A DNA stretch of 62,053 nt, taken from the NCBI GenBank assembly GCA_030615745.1, contig JAUWYR010000009.1:1-62053 (forward strand), read 5' to 3'. Below are positions 13,592-54,770 of the stretch, piece after piece. The notes beneath the pieces are model-generated. The model ran no database searches, was not told the DNA's origin, and saw nothing but the letters and a program-made list of their open reading frames with translations. A program made the position numbers and the translations under genes. Each line of letters opens with the position of its first letter. Position 1 is the stretch's first letter. This DNA is from Candidatus Zixiibacteriota bacterium (GTDB taxonomy: Bacteria > Zixibacteria > MSB-5A5 > SM23-73-2).

Positions 13592-16500
13592 TTATCTCGA
13601 TGCCTCGGCATTAGGAAATGCCGAGGAAAAGCTTTTGCAAAGATAAGAAGAAATCTTAGCTTGACTTGCCCCCAGCTTCTCAAGCAAAAACAAGACTTCT
13701 GCTGCATCATCATATTCCAATTCAGGATCAGCAGCCAGCTCAGGATTGCGAGAACCTTTAAGGATAGCCTGCAATTTAGAAATCAATGGCCTTAATGATG
13801 GATCTATTTGAGGATCGCTCGCTAGTTGCGACAGACGATTTGCCATCTCCTTTGTCTTGTTATCTTGAATTGCCTGCCAGAAAGCAAGACATAGGCGCCC
13901 GCCCGGATCATGGTTTTCCCCGCCGTCCCGGCGGTAAGCAAGATATAGCTTAATAGCCATCTGCCACGCTCGGGCTACCGCTTCCTGATTGCCTTGAGCC
14001 TGTTCGATTAGATGCAATATTGCCCAGGCTTTCCAGGGATTAGTAGTATGGCCATAAGGTTTTATACACTCAAGTGATCGTTGAATCTCCTCGCGAGCTT
14101 CATCATATCTCTTAAGTAACATCAATGGAATAGCTAAACCATAACGCGCGAGTCCTTCACTTTTGATATTCTTAATTTCAACATTTTTATTCGCAGCTTG
14201 TCGATAAAATATCACAGCCTCCTCGAAACGGCCCATTCCATTGTAAAGGTTGCCCAAGTGTAGTAAAGACGTGGCCTCTCCTGCTGCGTCCTTTTGCTGC
14301 ACCTTAATGGCCAGCGATTGCCGATAGGCATTTTCCGCTGCTTCAAATTGATTTGCTTTTTCATGAACCATGCCAATCTGATGCCACGCAACGGCAACCA
14401 TCTTAGGTTCGCCAAGATTTTCGAATATTTGTCTCGCTTCGTCATAAGCTTTGAGGGCTTCATCATAGCGCCGTTGAGCCAAACGTACCGCTCCAAGTTG
14501 GCCTTTTCCAACAGCAACTTCTCTATTATCTTTCAATTCTCGCGATCGCTTTACAAGTTCTTCATAAACAGCAGCAGCTTCCTCCAATCGTCCAAGTTCT
14601 ATTAGACATCCTCCCGTTTCTTCAAATGTAAGTGCTACCATTCTTGAGGCAGCCATAACTCCCTGATCTGCGAGAAGCTGAGAACGTTGGTATGTCTCAT
14701 TAATTGGTTGAAGTGCGGCTTCAGCAGCGCCTCCTAATCTCATTACACGCCCAAGCAAAAAATAAGCCACAGCTGTATCATAATCTGCTCCTGAATAAGC
14801 TCCTTCACCAATCTGTAAACATTTATCCAGCAGTGCCTGCGCATCCTGCAATGCCTGAGGCAAATTTCCACTGCCTAATATTCTTTCAATCTCCATTCTC
14901 GATGATTCAAATCTGGTATGGCTCCAATCCCCTAATTTTACCGTTTCAGCTTCCCGAATCGCCACTACCTGAGCCAGAAGGTGTTGTCTACCCAATGGTG
15001 CAATCAATTGTTCAAGCCTTGTAGCCAGGTCTACGGTGGTCTCTGGTTCACCCTGCGCTTGTACATATTCCAGCAGTCGCATCAGGTTTGGCAATTCCAG
15101 CAGCGTTAATGTTGCAGAAAGTTGGGCATCTTTGAATTGCTGATCGTATAAGTAGTAACTCAATTGCTTCATACTCTCAACCCATCTTGCTGTGCTGCTG
15201 GTGCGTGCAGTTTGGTCCAATTCCTGCCACAGGTAGGGGCACAGCGCGGGGTGAAAAAGTAAGAAGCCATAGGGCTTTGGCTCAGCCAGACCAATTTCCA
15301 CTAATTCACGAATTAGCAAATCTCTTTCTTCATCAGTTAGTTCTAATACTTCTTTCAGCGTGAATAAGTCTGCACCTCCCTGAAACACGCCCAGCGCCTT
15401 GATTTTCTCTCGTGATTTGGGTGACAGCCTGCGTAAGGAAAGCTCCACGCTGGCGAATAGGGAGCATTCCCGTTCGTTGGGGTATTTCTTGTGCAGTTCA
15501 GCCATTAAACGACTCAGGTTATCGGTGGTGGGTTGGACGCTAAATTCGCTGATATAGGGTGCCAAAAGCACCAGGCTGCGGGCATGGCAATTTACGGCTT
15601 CTACCAGTGCTTCTATTTCTGGTTGGGTATTGCCAGATTCATCTTCTTTGGGCGCTAAATTTTGGACGGTCATGGCTTGGTGCACTAATTCAATTGCGTC
15701 TTGTTTGATCAAGCGTCCGAGAATTACCCTCTGGAACTTGGTATCAAATGGGGCAGGCATGACTTCGCGAGAGGTGAATAGCAGACGGGTGCCATCAACT
15801 GCCAATAGTTTTTTGCAGAGGTAAAAAAATGTCTTCAAAGCTTCAGGCTCGAACCTGGCTATTTCTGCCAGGGTGGAGTCGGTATTGCTTGCTGCTGGGG
15901 GGAGGATGCTTTCGATATTATCGAGGATAATAAGGGTACGATCGTTCTTCAACTCACGTTCAATGGGGTGCAAGGCTTTGGTCAACAAGTCTTCAGGAGA
16001 ATATTCTGCTACAGAATAGTTGGGAATAAGCTGCTTACCAATTCTATCCACTACGGTACGTACATCATGAACATCTTCAAAGCAAACAAAAGCTCCCCTT
16101 TGAAAACGGTTGGTACGTATTAACCAGCGCGCCAGCTCTGCTGCCAAAGTAGTTTTTCCTTCACCCCCTTGGCCGCACAAAACAGCATAAGGCTTTTGCG
16201 CGAGCAAACGCTCCAATTTCAGAAGTTCCCTGCTGCGCCCTACAAAATGGTGTTCTGGAGTTGGGGGCAACTTGCCGAAACGATTTTCCAGAGCTTTTTT
16301 GTCAATGGATTCTATCTCCCTGGAAGGCACTCGAGTGAGCAGCTGTAGGTCATCCTCTTCCTGGTAAAGCACCGGCACGAACCAGTCCTGCAAGTCTAAG
16401 CTGCCGGCTCCAAATATTTTGATGCGAAAACTGTCGGATTTCAAGGTAAGCTGTCCAGCCAACATAGCTTCACCTACACGAGCACCAGTTGCCAGTTTTT

Positions 16501-18049
16501 GGTAAAAGCTTTCCACAAATCGGCGGGCAGTTTCTACCAGCACCGAATGGCTCATAGCCACGACTGAGGCAACGCCTTCATCCAATAAAGCAGCTGCTAC
16601 CGAAGCTGTGGGATCTTGTTCAGCTTTAGCAGTTTCACAGGCTTCAAGAAAAAACAGGGGGATACGATGATCTCTGATAACAGCAGCTAACTCCTTGGCA
16701 TCAATTATCTGCGAACGCCTCTTTTCCAATTTTTGGCTGTCTTGTGGATCTTCAAAGCAAAGACCACCCAATCCCAAATCCTTGCGAAACACACCATGAC
16801 CATTAAAATGCACCACATGGTAAGGAATTCCTGCCTCCCGTGCTCGCAACAATTCTTTTTCAAGAGCCGGAAAAGTCGGCGGTGAGAGCACAGTAAGTTC
16901 TGCCAATTTGCCCAAGCTTTCCAGCGCGGTGACCAACGGCAGAGCACTGACCCGGTGATCGATATATCCTGCTTTTTCATCTTCAGGCCTTGGACTGACC
17001 AGCAAAATGCGTATGGGTGACTCAGCCACGATTCCTTCAAAGGCTTTTGTGTTGGGCAAGCGTCTTCGTGCTTGCACTGGCTTCGCACCATGGAATAGAT
17101 AACTTCTGCCATCATGCAAAAGTTCCCATGGCAGGGTTAGCAGCAAAGTGGCAGCTTCGCCGGCCTCAGCCTGTTTCTTCGTGTCAGCGCCTTTTACTAA
17201 TTTCGAATCAACGAAAACAGTAAAGCGTCGAGCTGCTCCGGTTTTTGCTGTTTCCCAGGCAATCAGCACGTTACGAACTGATTCATCATTTAAAACAGCA
17301 TCATAGAGTGCTTTTCCCCATTTAGGCAGTTTTGTTTCTACGTTTTGCGCGCGTTCTTTGAATACTCCTGTGGGCCACATGTAATACCGTTCAAGGTACC
17401 AGCTCAACTCTTCTGCTTCAATCGGACCAAGGGGGGAGGTGAATGTGAATCTCACTTTGCTGGCGACTTTACGTTTTCCAGGCTCACTGGGGATGTAGTT
17501 TAATCTTGCTGTTGCCTGCGCTCGGCGAACACCTTCCTTTTCAAAAATGCATGGATCGGTAAGGTCTAAAAGTAGCTCTTCTTGAGGTTTTTCCAGAGGT
17601 CTACGCATGGGTTGAAGATCATCAGGAAGCCGATCACCTAATGCAGCCAATATTTGAGGCATGGCTTCACTGATACCTCCGGGACCAATTTGAATCTTTA
17701 TTGCAAGAGGTTCTTCTTTAAAATACAGTTTTAATGCTTCTGGTTCAACACCCTCTAAAAGAAGAGGAATCACTTGGTAATCACCAGCACGTTTTTTCTT
17801 GACTCTCAGTGCATATTTTGTTTCCTTCAAAACCCATGGGGAATTAAAAGCGTTAATGCTGAGCACAACAATAAATGCACGGGCTTGTTCAATAGCCTGC
17901 TTTATCTCAGGCTCCAATTCATCGCCAGGTGCTAACTCCCGCGAATCAATCCAGGTTGCCAACTTCTGGATTTCCAAGCTCTCGCGAAGAGCTTTTACAA
18001 ATTCTTTATCTTTGCTGCTGTGGGAAATGAAGATTTTATTTTTAGTCAT
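13592..18049 (-). CDS. TIR-CHAT-STAND ATPase-TPR conflict/defence protein
   Basis: 1485 residues. A TIR domain at 5-125 opens with KIFISHSSKDKEFV and has the likely NADase Glu at position 76 (WVLKE). A CHAT caspase-like protease domain at about 290-560 has the catalytic dyad H418 (HFNGHG) and C471 (FFLEACETA), preceded by the family's LPWELL motif. A STAND/NB-ARC-type ATPase starts at FVGRSREL (602), with P-loop GQGGEGKTT (626-634), Walker B LIILD (706-710) and a sensor RLLFTSRE near 755-762. A winged-helix-like part follows, then TPRs (about 1090-1400). Families of this build are ligand-triggered switches in bacterial immunity and cell suicide; here two effectors sit on one switch. No partner gene is adjacent. 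Base composition is clearly richer in GC than the flanking genes, suggesting transfer. The ATG has AAAGG upstream. The C-terminal tail is encoded by a palindromic repeat. Confidence 0.88.
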   Translation of the reverse strand: MTKNKIFISHSSKDKEFVKALRESLEIQKLATWIDSRELAPGDELEPEIKQAIEQARAFIVVLSINAFNSPWVLKETKYALRVKKKRAGDYQVIPLLLEGVEPEALKLYFKEEPLAIKIQIGPGGISEAMPQILAALGDRLPDDLQPMRRPLEKPQEELLLDLTDPCIFEKEGVRRAQATARLNYIPSEPGKRKVASKVRFTFTSPLGPIEAEELSWYLERYYMWPTGVFKERAQNVETKLPKWGKALYDAVLNDESVRNVLIAWETAKTGAARRFTVFVDSKLVKGADTKKQAEAGEAATLLLTLPWELLHDGRSYLFHGAKPVQARRRLPNTKAFEGIVAESPIRILLVSPRPEDEKAGYIDHRVSALPLVTALESLGKLAELTVLSPPTFPALEKELLRAREAGIPYHVVHFNGHGVFRKDLGLGGLCFEDPQDSQKLEKRRSQIIDAKELAAVIRDHRIPLFFLEACETAKAEQDPTASVAAALLDEGVASVVAMSHSVLVETARRFVESFYQKLATGARVGEAMLAGQLTLKSDSFRIKIFGAGSLDLQDWFVPVLYQEEDDLQLLTRVPSREIESIDKKALENRFGKLPPTPEHHFVGRSRELLKLERLLAQKPYAVLCGQGGEGKTTLAAELARWLIRTNRFQRGAFVCFEDVHDVRTVVDRIGKQLIPNYSVAEYSPEDLLTKALHPIERELKNDRTLIILDNIESILPPAASNTDSTLAEIARFEPEALKTFFYLCKKLLAVDGTRLLFTSREVMPAPFDTKFQRVILGRLIKQDAIELVHQAMTVQNLAPKEDESGNTQPEIEALVEAVNCHARSLVLLAPYISEFSVQPTTDNLSRLMAELHKKYPNERECSLFASVELSLRRLSPKSREKIKALGVFQGGADLFTLKEVLELTDEERDLLIRELVEIGLAEPKPYGFLLFHPALCPYLWQELDQTARTSSTARWVESMKQLSYYLYDQQFKDAQLSATLTLLELPNLMRLLEYVQAQGEPETTVDLATRLEQLIAPLGRQHLLAQVVAIREAETVKLGDWSHTRFESSRMEIERILGSGNLPQALQDAQALLDKCLQIGEGAYSGADYDTAVAYFLLGRVMRLGGAAEAALQPINETYQRSQLLADQGVMAASRMVALTFEETGGCLIELGRLEEAAAVYEELVKRSRELKDNREVAVGKGQLGAVRLAQRRYDEALKAYDEARQIFENLGEPKMVAVAWHQIGMVHEKANQFEAAENAYRQSLAIKVQQKDAAGEATSLLHLGNLYNGMGRFEEAVIFYRQAANKNVEIKNIKSEGLARYGLAIPLMLLKRYDEAREEIQRSLECIKPYGHTTNPWKAWAILHLIEQAQGNQEAVARAWQMAIKLYLAYRRDGGENHDPGGRLCLAFWQAIQDNKTKEMANRLSQLASDPQIDPSLRPLISKLQAILKGSRNPELAADPELEYDDAAEVLFLLEKLGASQAKISSYLCKSFSSAFPNAEASR
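13597..13626. repeat. Palindromic repeat, copy 3 of 3, forming the 3' end of the TIR-CHAT gene
   Basis: CCTCGGCATT/AATGCCGAGG hairpin (13603-13626) with the CTCGATGC-type arm beside it. Read on the minus strand, it supplies the last eight codons (FPNAEASR) of the 1485-residue protein. Confidence 0.7.
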
Positions 18050-25232: not shown

Positions 25233-26303
25233 CTATTTTATAGGAATCGGGGTAAAACAGAGGACAAATATAGCCAATGAAATCCAGCCGATTACCTTTC
25301 TTTTTCTGTCCAGAGGTATGGAATCATTTAAGGTTGGTGGATGAGATAAGTTTAACACAAAAAGACCCAAACCTGCCCACAGGAGCCATCCCAACCAGAA
25401 ATAGCCTAAGGGAATCAAAGCTAAAACAACATATTTTGATACTTTTTTTTGCTTTCTGCCCAAAAGTGCATAAGTTATATGCCCTCCATCCAGCTGACCG
25501 ATGGGTAAAAGATTAAGCATAGTAACGAAAAGCCCGGCCCACCCTGCAAATGCAGTTGGACTTAAAACTAACTGGTGTCCTTCCGGGACATTTAAAAATA
25601 GTTTGGATAAAAATAAAAAGATCAAGGAATCACCCAAAATGAAGCCCTCCTTTGAAACTTCCTCAACTATCTCCGAGCTTGAAAACCCTATTATCACAAC
25701 AAAAACTGAGATGATAAATCCCCATATAGGACCAGATGCACCTACATCCAAGAGGTCTTTTCTCGATTTAAAAGGTGATCTTGATTTTATCACCGCGCCA
25801 AATGTTCCCAGAATTGTTGGTCCTGGAATAAAATAAGGTAGGCTTGTTTTGATTTTCCTTCTTTTTGAAAAGAAATAATGTCCGAACTCATGGAAAAGTA
25901 AAATTAGCATAAGGGGAATTGCAAAGGATGCTCCATAACGAATCAAGAGTGGATTGGAAAGTATGTTTTTGTTTTCAAAAAGAACTGCCCCTACGGAGAA
26001 GGTGGAAACCAAAGTCAAAAAGAATAGAATGATGTTAAACCAGGGTATTTGTTTTTTTGTTTTTCCAACCTTTTTTAGCTCCAATATCACCTGGCCATTG
26101 TTGTCCTCAAAAGAGGTTTTAAATCCTAAGGAAGAAAGTCTTACTTTTGTAACGTCTTTCCAATTCGGGTCAAAATAGAAAGGCTTTCCAATAATCATTA
26201 TATCTTTTCCATCATGATAGGCTCCGGTGACTATCATGATATCCAAAAGCGCTTTCCGGCAAGCCTCTATTTCCTCTTTTAGCTTTTGTTTAGATTTTTT
26301 CAC
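25233..26303 (-). CDS. Site-2 protease-type (M50) membrane metalloprotease
   Basis: 356 residues with a soluble N-terminal domain (1-90) and several transmembrane helices. The zinc motif is HEFGH at 138-142 and the third ligand is D272 in PIGQLDGGH, both diagnostic of M50 proteases. SSGPxxG-like DVGASGPIWG is present. The order of elements resembles plant EGY and cyanobacterial S2P-like proteins. It probably cleaves membrane-embedded substrates. GTG start at 26303 overlapping the stop of the propeller gene by 4 bp, so the two are translationally coupled. Together with the TPR gene it forms a three-gene operon. Confidence 0.88.
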   Translation of the reverse strand: MKKSKQKLKEEIEACRKALLDIMIVTGAYHDGKDIMIIGKPFYFDPNWKDVTKVRLSSLGFKTSFEDNNGQVILELKKVGKTKKQIPWFNIILFFLTLVSTFSVGAVLFENKNILSNPLLIRYGASFAIPLMLILLFHEFGHYFFSKRRKIKTSLPYFIPGPTILGTFGAVIKSRSPFKSRKDLLDVGASGPIWGFIISVFVVIIGFSSSEIVEEVSKEGFILGDSLIFLFLSKLFLNVPEGHQLVLSPTAFAGWAGLFVTMLNLLPIGQLDGGHITYALLGRKQKKVSKYVVLALIPLGYFWLGWLLWAGLGLFVLNLSHPPTLNDSIPLDRKRKVIGWISLAIFVLCFTPIPIK

Positions 26304-27397
26304 AGGACCATCTCAAGTATATGCGAAGCATTCTTCAGATTTTCTACTCTTTGGATCAACTCTTCTTTTGAAATAACCTGATTTAACCTTAAAAAGTATA
26401 TCTCGAAATATTGATCTTTTTGATCTTTTGGTTTAGTCACATAGACGACCGTTTTCCCATCTGGAGAAAAAGATGGATATTTCTTATCCATTCCATCATA
26501 GGTTAATCTTTTTTGCTTTGTTCCATCTGAGTTCATAATGTAAAGCTCGTCCTCTCCATCTCTTTTGGATACAAATACAATTTTTCGACCATCAGGGGGA
26601 AAGGAAGGAAAAAAGTCCTCATTTTTCAAATGGGAGAGACACTTTAAGTTTTCACCATTTGAGTCCATCAAATAGATTTTCCTTTTGTCAAATCCAGCAT
26701 CGAAGGTTATCTTTTTCCCATCAGGGGAGAAGGAAGGATAAAATGGCAGATATGGTCTTTTTTTTCTTAACATTTTTTTATTCTTTCGATAAAGACTTTT
26801 TACTTTCTGAGTATCTAAATTCAGGGTGCAGATTCCTCCATATTGATCTGAGACAAAAAGAATTTTTTTGTCATCAGGGGAGAAAGAGGCTATCCCATCA
26901 TAGAGGTCGTTTTGGGTCAATCTTTTCTCTTTTTTATTTTCTAAATCTTTTAAGAATATGTCACGGTCATAATTGAAAACTAAAGCCTCTGTTTCTGAAG
27001 TTATGTTTTCTTTTTCATAGACGATCTTTTTTCCATCTTTTGAGAAAGAGGGAAACTTTTCAGAAAAATCTTGTGAGGTTAAGCATGATTTATTTCCTCC
27101 TTTTATATCCATAATGAATATTTTGCTTTTTTTAATAACTTTTTTTTTCAAACCATAATCCTCGAGTAAAAATGAAGTGTCTGAGAAAAAGGCGATCTTT
27201 TTCCCATCCGGTGAAAATTTCGGAGCATAGTCTGCAACCAAATCGAAAGTTTTTCTTTCTATTTTAAATCTCCCTGCAGTTAGATTGGCTATTTCTTCGA
27301 TTTTTTCTTTTTTGTCTGAATTTTTTAAGACGAACAAAAAATCGGATAAAGCCTTTCTCTTTTTATTCTCCACCCATCTTTCCCCCCCCCTTTTCAA
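26300..27397 (-). CDS. TolB-type six-bladed beta-propeller protein (WD40-like PD40 repeats)
   Basis: 365 residues, made of about six repeats with the core FSPDGKKIxFxSD (for example KFSPDGKKIAFFSD, SFSPDDKKILFVSD, SFSPDGKKITFDAG, SFSPDGKTVVYVTK), as in TolB and DPP6-like propellers. The apparent TTG start at 27397 gives no signal peptide, odd for such a protein. The start lies within the end of the TPR gene, right at a run of nine Gs (27382-27390 as C on the plus strand). Losing one G would fuse both into one secreted TPR-propeller protein. It probably works with the M50 protease downstream, whose start overlaps its stop. Confidence 0.82.
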   Translation of the reverse strand: MKRGGERWVENKKRKALSDFLFVLKNSDKKEKIEEIANLTAGRFKIERKTFDLVADYAPKFSPDGKKIAFFSDTSFLLEDYGLKKKVIKKSKIFIMDIKGGNKSCLTSQDFSEKFPSFSKDGKKIVYEKENITSETEALVFNYDRDIFLKDLENKKEKRLTQNDLYDGIASFSPDDKKILFVSDQYGGICTLNLDTQKVKSLYRKNKKMLRKKRPYLPFYPSFSPDGKKITFDAGFDKRKIYLMDSNGENLKCLSHLKNEDFFPSFPPDGRKIVFVSKRDGEDELYIMNSDGTKQKRLTYDGMDKKYPSFSPDGKTVVYVTKPKDQKDQYFEIYFLRLNQVISKEELIQRVENLKNASHILEMVL

Positions 27398-27752
27398 ATC
27401 TAATATCGCACAAAAGATTTTTTGCCTTTTGGCTTTCAGGATTTAACTCAAATGTTTTTTGACACTCATATTCAGAAAGTGATAGATCCCCTTTTTTATA
27501 ATATGCTAAAGCTAAATGAAAGTGTGCTAAGAAATCATCTGGATTTTCTTTTAAAGCAAAAGAAAGCAAAGAGATTGCTGAATCGGGTTTTTCTTTGTCC
27601 AGAAACTTTTTTGCCTTGTCAATACATTTTTCCTTTTCAGAAATGGGAAAGGAGTGCTCAGAGGGGGAAAATAGATTTTTAGTTCCTAAAAAGATAACCA
27701 AATTTAAGGCACAGAGCAAAAGAATACTCAAAAATGGAAAAAGATTTTTCAT
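27363..27752 (-). CDS. Membrane-anchored or secreted TPR protein
   Basis: 130 residues from the ATG at 27752. The frame extends 43 codons further upstream to 27881, but the internal Met places a basic residue and a hydrophobic helix (LFPFLSILLLCALNLVIFLG) at the N-terminus. Two to three TPR motifs follow (KAKKFLDKEKPDSAISLLSFALKENPDDFLAHFHLALAYYKKGDLSLSEYECQKTFELNPES). It ends KGGGKMGGE just past a G9 tract and overlaps the propeller gene by 35 bp in another frame. It is probably the N-terminal half of a single TPR-propeller protein. Confidence 0.7.
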   Translation of the reverse strand: MKNLFPFLSILLLCALNLVIFLGTKNLFSPSEHSFPISEKEKCIDKAKKFLDKEKPDSAISLLSFALKENPDDFLAHFHLALAYYKKGDLSLSEYECQKTFELNPESQKAKNLLCDIRFEKGGGKMGGE

Positions 27753-28077
27753 ATTGTTAATATACGAAAAAGAAAAGATTAAAAAAGAGCAAAGACTTTT
27801 TATATCTTTTGATAAATTTGAAAGGTATAAGGTTGAAAAGAATCGATCTTCCGAAAAGAGAAATGCTATATTGGTTTTCAATGACCAACTACTGTATAAC
27901 TGTCTGTTAACTTAAATAGATTTAGCGAAATTATTGAGTTTACCAGCCAAAATCCAAGCTTGCTAAAAAATAAAAGAATTACTAAATTACTTCTGGAATA
28001 TATACTTTACATAGGGAGAAGAGCTAAAGGTGATCAGGTTTTTTTATTAGGCAAAAGAAAACTTTTTGCTCCCAATT

Positions 28078-31688: not shown

Positions 31689-32915
31689 TTATTTTTCCTT
31701 AAACTCCACCCTTTCGAAATCCTCCCAGTCTATCCTGTATTCTTTCCCGTCAGTTATTATGTAGATTCCTTTGTTCTCATCTGTGACATCGTTGGAGTTT
31801 TCCAAAACAAAAGTGTTCCCATTTTTGAGAATTATCTCTGCTCCCCAGAAGGAGCGCTTTTTAATCGATTTTATCTGACCAAATTCCACCATAACCTCTA
31901 AGTCATTATAATCTCCATCAAGCATCTCCCAGGTGTATTTCTCATCATCGTCCCAGGTGATAAATCCGGTATAAAAGTCGCCATCTTCAGTATAGACTGT
32001 TCCATAAAGTGGTTTTCCCCCATCATATTCATCATAACTTTTCAGATATTTTTCACCACTTTTTAAAAATTTCACCTCACCGAAATCGCCCCACTCCACC
32101 TCAACTCTTCCGAAATTAAAATCCTTTACTAAAATCCCGCGGTTGGAGGAGTTAACGTCGTTGGTGCCACTTAAATCGATCTCTTCTCCATTTTTTAAAA
32201 AGACCGTGGCTGAATTGCGTGAGCGACGCTTGATTTTTTCGATATTCTTAAATGGTATCTCCCAATCTCTCCCATCTTCTTCTCCGTCCAAGATATCAGT
32301 GGAGAAAATCTCATCATGGTCCCAGGTGATGAATCCAAGAAACTCATCTCCGTCTCTGGTTACAAGCTTTCCAAAAAGCCTAATCTTATTATCTTTTGGA
32401 AGTCCCTCTGGTTCGGTTTCAAAAATCACTTTGTCTAAATCAGACCATTCCAATCTCACCTTTCCATAATCTTGGTCCTCAACCACAATTCTTCTTACAG
32501 AGCTTCCGATGTCAGTTCCATATCCTTTGACTTTAACCCTATCACCCGATTTCAGATATATCGTTGCCCTGTGTTTTGAGCGTGGTCTTATCGATTGAAT
32601 ATGCCCGAATTTAATACCCATTGAGGAGCGCAAATACTCTCCGCTTTTGCTCCAGCTAATGCGGAGTCCGAATATCTCGATAGACTCCTCTTTTTCGTAA
32701 CCCTCGTAATGAGGTGTGCGATAGCTTTTGGTGCAGTCAAGTATGTCCTCCCAGATTCCCTCATTTTTATCCCATGTGATCCTACCTTCGTAAACATCAC
32801 CATCTTCTGTGTAAATTTTGCCATAGATTCTGCCGGTGGCAGAAAAAACACCAGCTACGTCCAAAAGAGTGAAAAGAAGCAAAAAGAAACAAGCTGATAT
32901 CAAATGCTTAATCAT
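31689..32915 (-). CDS. Secreted protein with three repeated beta-rich domains, unknown
   Basis: Starting at the ATG at 32915 gives a signal peptide (MIKHLISACFFLLLFTLLDV...FSA); the frame runs 49 codons further upstream but that part is not signal-like. Mature protein: three copies of an approximately 120-residue unit opening with GKIYTEDGDVYEGRITWDKNE, GKLVTRDGDEFLGFITWDHDE and GTVYTEDGDFYTGFITWDDDE. Each continues to KSIKKRS(R/F)xxAxIxLKNGxxxxLxxxxDV and ends with a KVxFE-like strand. Each unit looks like an all-beta sensor or adhesive module. I do not recognise a named family. Monocistronic with a strong terminator. Confidence 0.7.
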   Translation of the reverse strand: MIKHLISACFFLLLFTLLDVAGVFSATGRIYGKIYTEDGDVYEGRITWDKNEGIWEDILDCTKSYRTPHYEGYEKEESIEIFGLRISWSKSGEYLRSSMGIKFGHIQSIRPRSKHRATIYLKSGDRVKVKGYGTDIGSSVRRIVVEDQDYGKVRLEWSDLDKVIFETEPEGLPKDNKIRLFGKLVTRDGDEFLGFITWDHDEIFSTDILDGEEDGRDWEIPFKNIEKIKRRSRNSATVFLKNGEEIDLSGTNDVNSSNRGILVKDFNFGRVEVEWGDFGEVKFLKSGEKYLKSYDEYDGGKPLYGTVYTEDGDFYTGFITWDDDEKYTWEMLDGDYNDLEVMVEFGQIKSIKKRSFWGAEIILKNGNTFVLENSNDVTDENKGIYIITDGKEYRIDWEDFERVEFKEK

Positions 32916-33049
32916 ATTAGATCCCTGGTTTAAAGTTTTATCCAAACAAAATATTTTGTTTGCTTTTTGTTTCAATTTCCTATAAAATATATGTGAAATA
33001 AAATGAAAAGTTTCAAAAATTTCGATACTATATATATTGTTTTTTTCTG

Positions 33050-33078
33050 TTGACAATAACAAAATGTTGTGTTAATTT
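33050..33078 (+). promoter_or_regulatory. Sigma-70-type promoter of the dtd-maf-rodZ operon
   Basis: TTGACA (33050-33055), 17 bp, TAATTT (33073-33078), 25 bp before the dtd start codon. Confidence 0.6.

Positions 33079-53342: not shown

Positions 53343-54770
<1,428 letters not shown>

Follow-up and report, generated by a model that had tools for sequence, protein, structure and literature searches.

A single TPR and TolB-like propeller gene of a Zixibacteria genome is frame-broken at a G9 tract, probably by accident

Homopolymer tracts inside coding regions have been described in two quite different roles. In Campylobacter, genes are switched by tracts of G8 and longer, and in Campylobacter jejuni G runs exceed chance, as described in the available part of that study (PMC6321876). 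In other cases, frame breaks at a homopolymer that are confined to a single genome have been ascribed to indel mutation or to sequencing error, according to the accessible text of a survey of prokaryotes (PMC3711429). Our literature search on Zixibacteria and phase variation found no report, only an unrelated paper. Here we analyze one such tract in a window of 62,053 nucleotides (contig JAUWYR010000009.1 of assembly GCA_030615745.1), which comes from a Candidatus Zixiibacteriota genome of 2.28 Mb in 74 contigs that is 98.55% complete. If the tract did switch in nature, which nothing in our results shows, this would be an unusual case of contingency switching in an uncultured sediment bacterium.

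Nine consecutive C on the plus strand, at 27382-27390, make up a G9 tract on the minus strand (27390-27382). Around this tract, two minus-strand ORFs in different frames, one with TPRs (27363-27881) and the other with a PD40 propeller (26300-27397), overlap by 35 bp (27363-27397), so that both the tract and the overlap given in the preliminary description are present in the sequence. That description also attributed a signal-type N-terminus to the joined frame, and a hydrophobic stretch, MKNLFPFLSILLLCALNLVIF, is indeed found in the TPR ORF, counted from the ATG at 27752; it was equally accurate in noting that the propeller ORF, as read, has its earliest start codon, a TTG, at 27397 and an N-terminus without a hydrophobic stretch. 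Removal of one base from the tract would join the two frames, as had been stated, but the length of the joined frame would be ~483 codons from the ATG at 27752, by our count, and not ~495. On the minus strand, the joined gene consists of a 5' part that contains the N-terminal hydrophobic anchor helix and the first TPR helices (27393-27752, with the ATG fitting the relatives), the G9 tract as the site of the frame break, as judged from the sequence and the relatives' genes, and a 3' part in the other frame that contains the remaining TPR region, the PD40/TolB-like beta-propeller, the C-terminal helix and the stop codon (26300-27381).

The two ORFs are one gene, with the frame broken exactly at the G tract, because the gene is a single open frame in all orthologues and because the break interrupts a TPR helix. 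The orthologues, of 447-536 codons and without internal stops, come from six relatives, all of them candidate division Zixibacteria MAGs (SM23_73_2, SM1_73, SM23_73_3, PFL53, GMC4 and bin1014), among which SM23_73_2, hereinafter the sister, belongs to the same genus and shares 72% identity across the propeller part. Altogether, 10 of the 132 genomes of the class contain a match at E <= 1e-25, namely, the window's own genome, the six with orthologues and three with propellers that are more distant, and only in the window's own genome does the match contain stops; the order's other family, with four genomes, has no match at this threshold. The residue alignment runs unbroken across the tract, with CDIRFEK followed by ERWVENKKRKALSDFLFVLKNS in the window and CDVRFEKAKEKWQKDEKRKALFDFLFVLKNS in the sister. 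The nucleotide sequences of five relatives (all six except SM1_73, which the search motif did not catch) contain no G tract at the junction, and the genes of the six relatives have G and C runs of at most 5 (for bin1014, in the readable 3' part). The preliminary description had looked to relatives for two clearly separate genes without a G tract; the tract is indeed missing there, but the gene is a fused one. When further sequences of this species were sought, 21 bases flanking the tract had no match in viral_contigs, the plasmid collection yielded none either, and genome_contigs returned only the six relatives, with records of the window's own genome possibly left out.

The intact sister protein was modeled with AlphaFold2 from a 7-row alignment (mean pLDDT 81.7, pTM 0.76). 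The model consists of an N-terminal hydrophobic helix (residues 29-53), helices of the TPR region (58-181), the propeller strands (185-482) and a helix at the C-terminus. Mapped onto this model, the break coincides with residues 145-146, in the middle of the TPR helix 131-150 and ~40 residues ahead of the propeller, with pLDDT >90 in these blocks. Thus, the tract does not mark the border between two domains, and the preliminary placement at the TPR/propeller junction gives way to a position inside the TPR region. Among solved structures, TolB propellers (PDB 4r40, 7mx5 and 1c5k) are the closest in fold, followed by S9 peptidase propellers; the cut-off of the TolB equivalog model TIGR02800, 343.15 bits, is missed by a wide margin both by the window's part (158.7) and by the whole sister protein (140.1). 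The product is best described as a predicted periplasmic, membrane-anchored protein with TPRs and a TolB-like beta-propeller that is conserved in a branch of Zixibacteria. Given the single N-terminal hydrophobic helix, it is predicted to be held in the inner membrane by this anchor and to have its domains on the periplasmic side. With this one helix, nothing points to a surface location, which the preliminary description had associated with phase-variable G tracts.

Directly after the propeller gene, on the same strand, lies a gene for an M50 peptidase, recognized by a domain match (25233-26303). Its GTG overlaps the propeller stop codon (GTGA) both in the window and in the sister, and it follows the TPR/propeller gene in all six relatives. 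This conserved adjacency suggests that the two genes form a functional pair.

Comparison with the sister (Nei-Gojobori) gave dN/dS values of 0.17 for the 5' part (118 codons) and 0.12 for the 3' part (345 codons), both within the range of 15 neighboring genes (0.03-0.21). By this measure, both halves of the gene are under purifying selection, so that a real break would be recent, although with dS at ~1.4 these values exclude only long-lasting decay. At sites identical in four distant orthologues, 14 private changes were counted in the window, compared with 26 in the intact sister, positions at which both differ being uncounted. An old pseudogene is therefore rejected: apart from the break, each half is an open frame under selection, and at conserved sites private substitutions are no commoner than in the sister.

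Within the window, two overlapping 8-mer G matches are seen against an expectation of 1.14, and 32 of 100 shuffles reach two; by composition, a run of at least eight G in the window is at chance level and unremarkable. The whole genome has 15 such 8-mer matches, which amount to 11 tracts of at least eight G, four of them G9. Five of the other tracts lie in ORFs with Pfam domains, those of a formyl transferase (G9), a glyoxalase, gyrase B and two dockerin proteins (G8 each), and all five ORFs are in frame and intact; the remaining five tracts fall in sequence without a recognized gene (one of the five ORFs was put to Pfam). In 380 kb, comprising the window and 16 stretches of the same genome, 4 G/C runs of at least eight were counted, with 6.4 expected from a first-order Markov model. 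Thus, neither the tract counts nor the reading frames at the other tracts within genes support a genome-wide poly-G contingency system. ORF maps around 13 of the 34 tracts of G8 or longer in the sister genome are without an obvious split, a weak observation made on ORFs alone, with no homology. In the same 380 kb, A/T runs of 5-8 are above the Markov expectation, and those of at least nine are strongly depleted (19 vs about 67 expected), a pattern suggestive of selection against A/T runs that are prone to slippage.

How the break came about can be weighed on this evidence. The sequence as given reads as two genuine separate genes with a 35-bp overlap, one for a small protein with TPRs and the other for a cytoplasmic propeller protein, but one gene in each of the six relatives and a break position within a TPR helix rule this arrangement out and leave it a practically negligible probability. 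It is also unlikely that the break is real but tolerated, with slippage of RNA polymerase or of the ribosome on the G run, or reinitiation at a GTG behind it, still yielding product, either the full-length protein or an unanchored propeller. A candidate reinitiation site can be read from the sequence, a GTG in the propeller frame (27371-27373, minus strand) located 8 nt past the G run, which itself might act as a Shine-Dalgarno sequence, and 5 nt ahead of the TPR-frame TAA (27365-27363), and the selection on both halves fits such a rescue. However, reinitiation would give a propeller without the anchor and without the first TPRs, studies of bacterial transcriptional slippage, in the part available, concern A/T runs (PMC1088944), and the site is conserved in no relative: where a programmed frameshift would have a conserved site, all six orthologues have one frame and no tract.

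Phase variation, as proposed in the preliminary description, would have slipped-strand mispairing at the G tract toggle the full-length protein in a selected and reversible manner. A G9 tract within a coding region, at which a single-base change shifts the reading frame, has the length of the Campylobacter switches, and apart from the tract both halves are intact. Against this, the tract is absent in all six orthologues, long G runs are not in excess, the reading frame is intact at the other intragenic tracts in ORFs with domain matches, nothing points to a surface location, and the break lies in a TPR helix common to all relatives. We consider such a switch improbable, and a more elaborate form, in which it would toggle the M50 partner as well by translational coupling at the GTGA overlap, somewhat less probable still. 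We infer instead that the break is accidental: with a rough probability of 0.78, this is one gene with a one-base homopolymer break and not an evolved switch. The G tract would have arisen in the window's lineage, and a one-base change in its length would have broken the frame in one assembly only, as a chance event, either an error of sequencing or assembly or an indel that arose recently by replication slippage in the cells sampled. The preliminary description had named a sequencing indel as the other option, and error remains among the leading explanations. Comparison with the sister shows unbroken frames in all of the 18 other syntenic genes covered, so that the assembly is good in general, and an error-ridden one is not supported; with a clean assembly elsewhere and an in-frame G9 in the formyl transferase gene, an error at just this tract would be an unlucky coincidence. 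Conversely, strong purifying selection makes catching a fresh mutant unlikely; neither point settles the matter. In our judgment, which is not a computed value, error comes close to an even chance and a recent chance indel is somewhat less probable, the lean toward error being slight. A seeming second break, at the atpC/atpD ORF overlap (53343-53443), was dismissed, the two ORFs being two ATP synthase subunits, each with its own Pfam domains. Judging by its name, the sister is the White Oak River bin SM-73-2; the project behind the SM bins used HiSeq 2000 PE100 reads and IDBA-UD co-assembly, according to the available part of its description (PMC4411801).

For annotation, the two 'genes' at this locus are to be recorded as a single gene with a broken frame, and the apparent lack of an export signal on the propeller is not to be taken for a biological observation. 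Elsewhere in the window, a 1485-aa protein (13592-18049, minus strand) contains TIR, CHAT, NB-ARC/AAA and TPR domains, with weak matches of the TIR to defence models, and a contig of the sister joins the conserved flanking blocks without this gene; domain content and synteny suggest a lineage-specific STAND protein, possibly with a role in defence. A 457-aa protein (31689-33062, minus strand) with repeated 'ED/RDGDxxxGxITWD' segments is conserved in the sister and has a Pfam match only below the cut-off (LytTR).

Among known proteins, TolB (TIGR02800; PDB 4r40, 7mx5 and 1c5k) gives the best fold and profile matches and has the PD40 propeller repeats in common with the product of this gene; unlike TolB, the gene here encodes an N-terminal anchor helix and TPRs, and has an M50 protease gene alongside. 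With the poly-G phase-variable genes of Campylobacter, as presented in the accessible part of that work (PMC6321876), the locus shares a G9 within the coding region at which one base shifts the frame, a frame-changing simple repeat on length alone; in Campylobacter, poly-G is above chance and accounts for most of the repeats, whereas here it is not above chance (4 vs 6.4 expected), and the tract is kept in 0/6 orthologues. From the singleton homopolymer frameshifts of prokaryotes, within the text available for that survey (PMC3711429), we found no difference: as there, one member is broken, in one genome and at a homopolymer, and all of its homologues elsewhere are intact.
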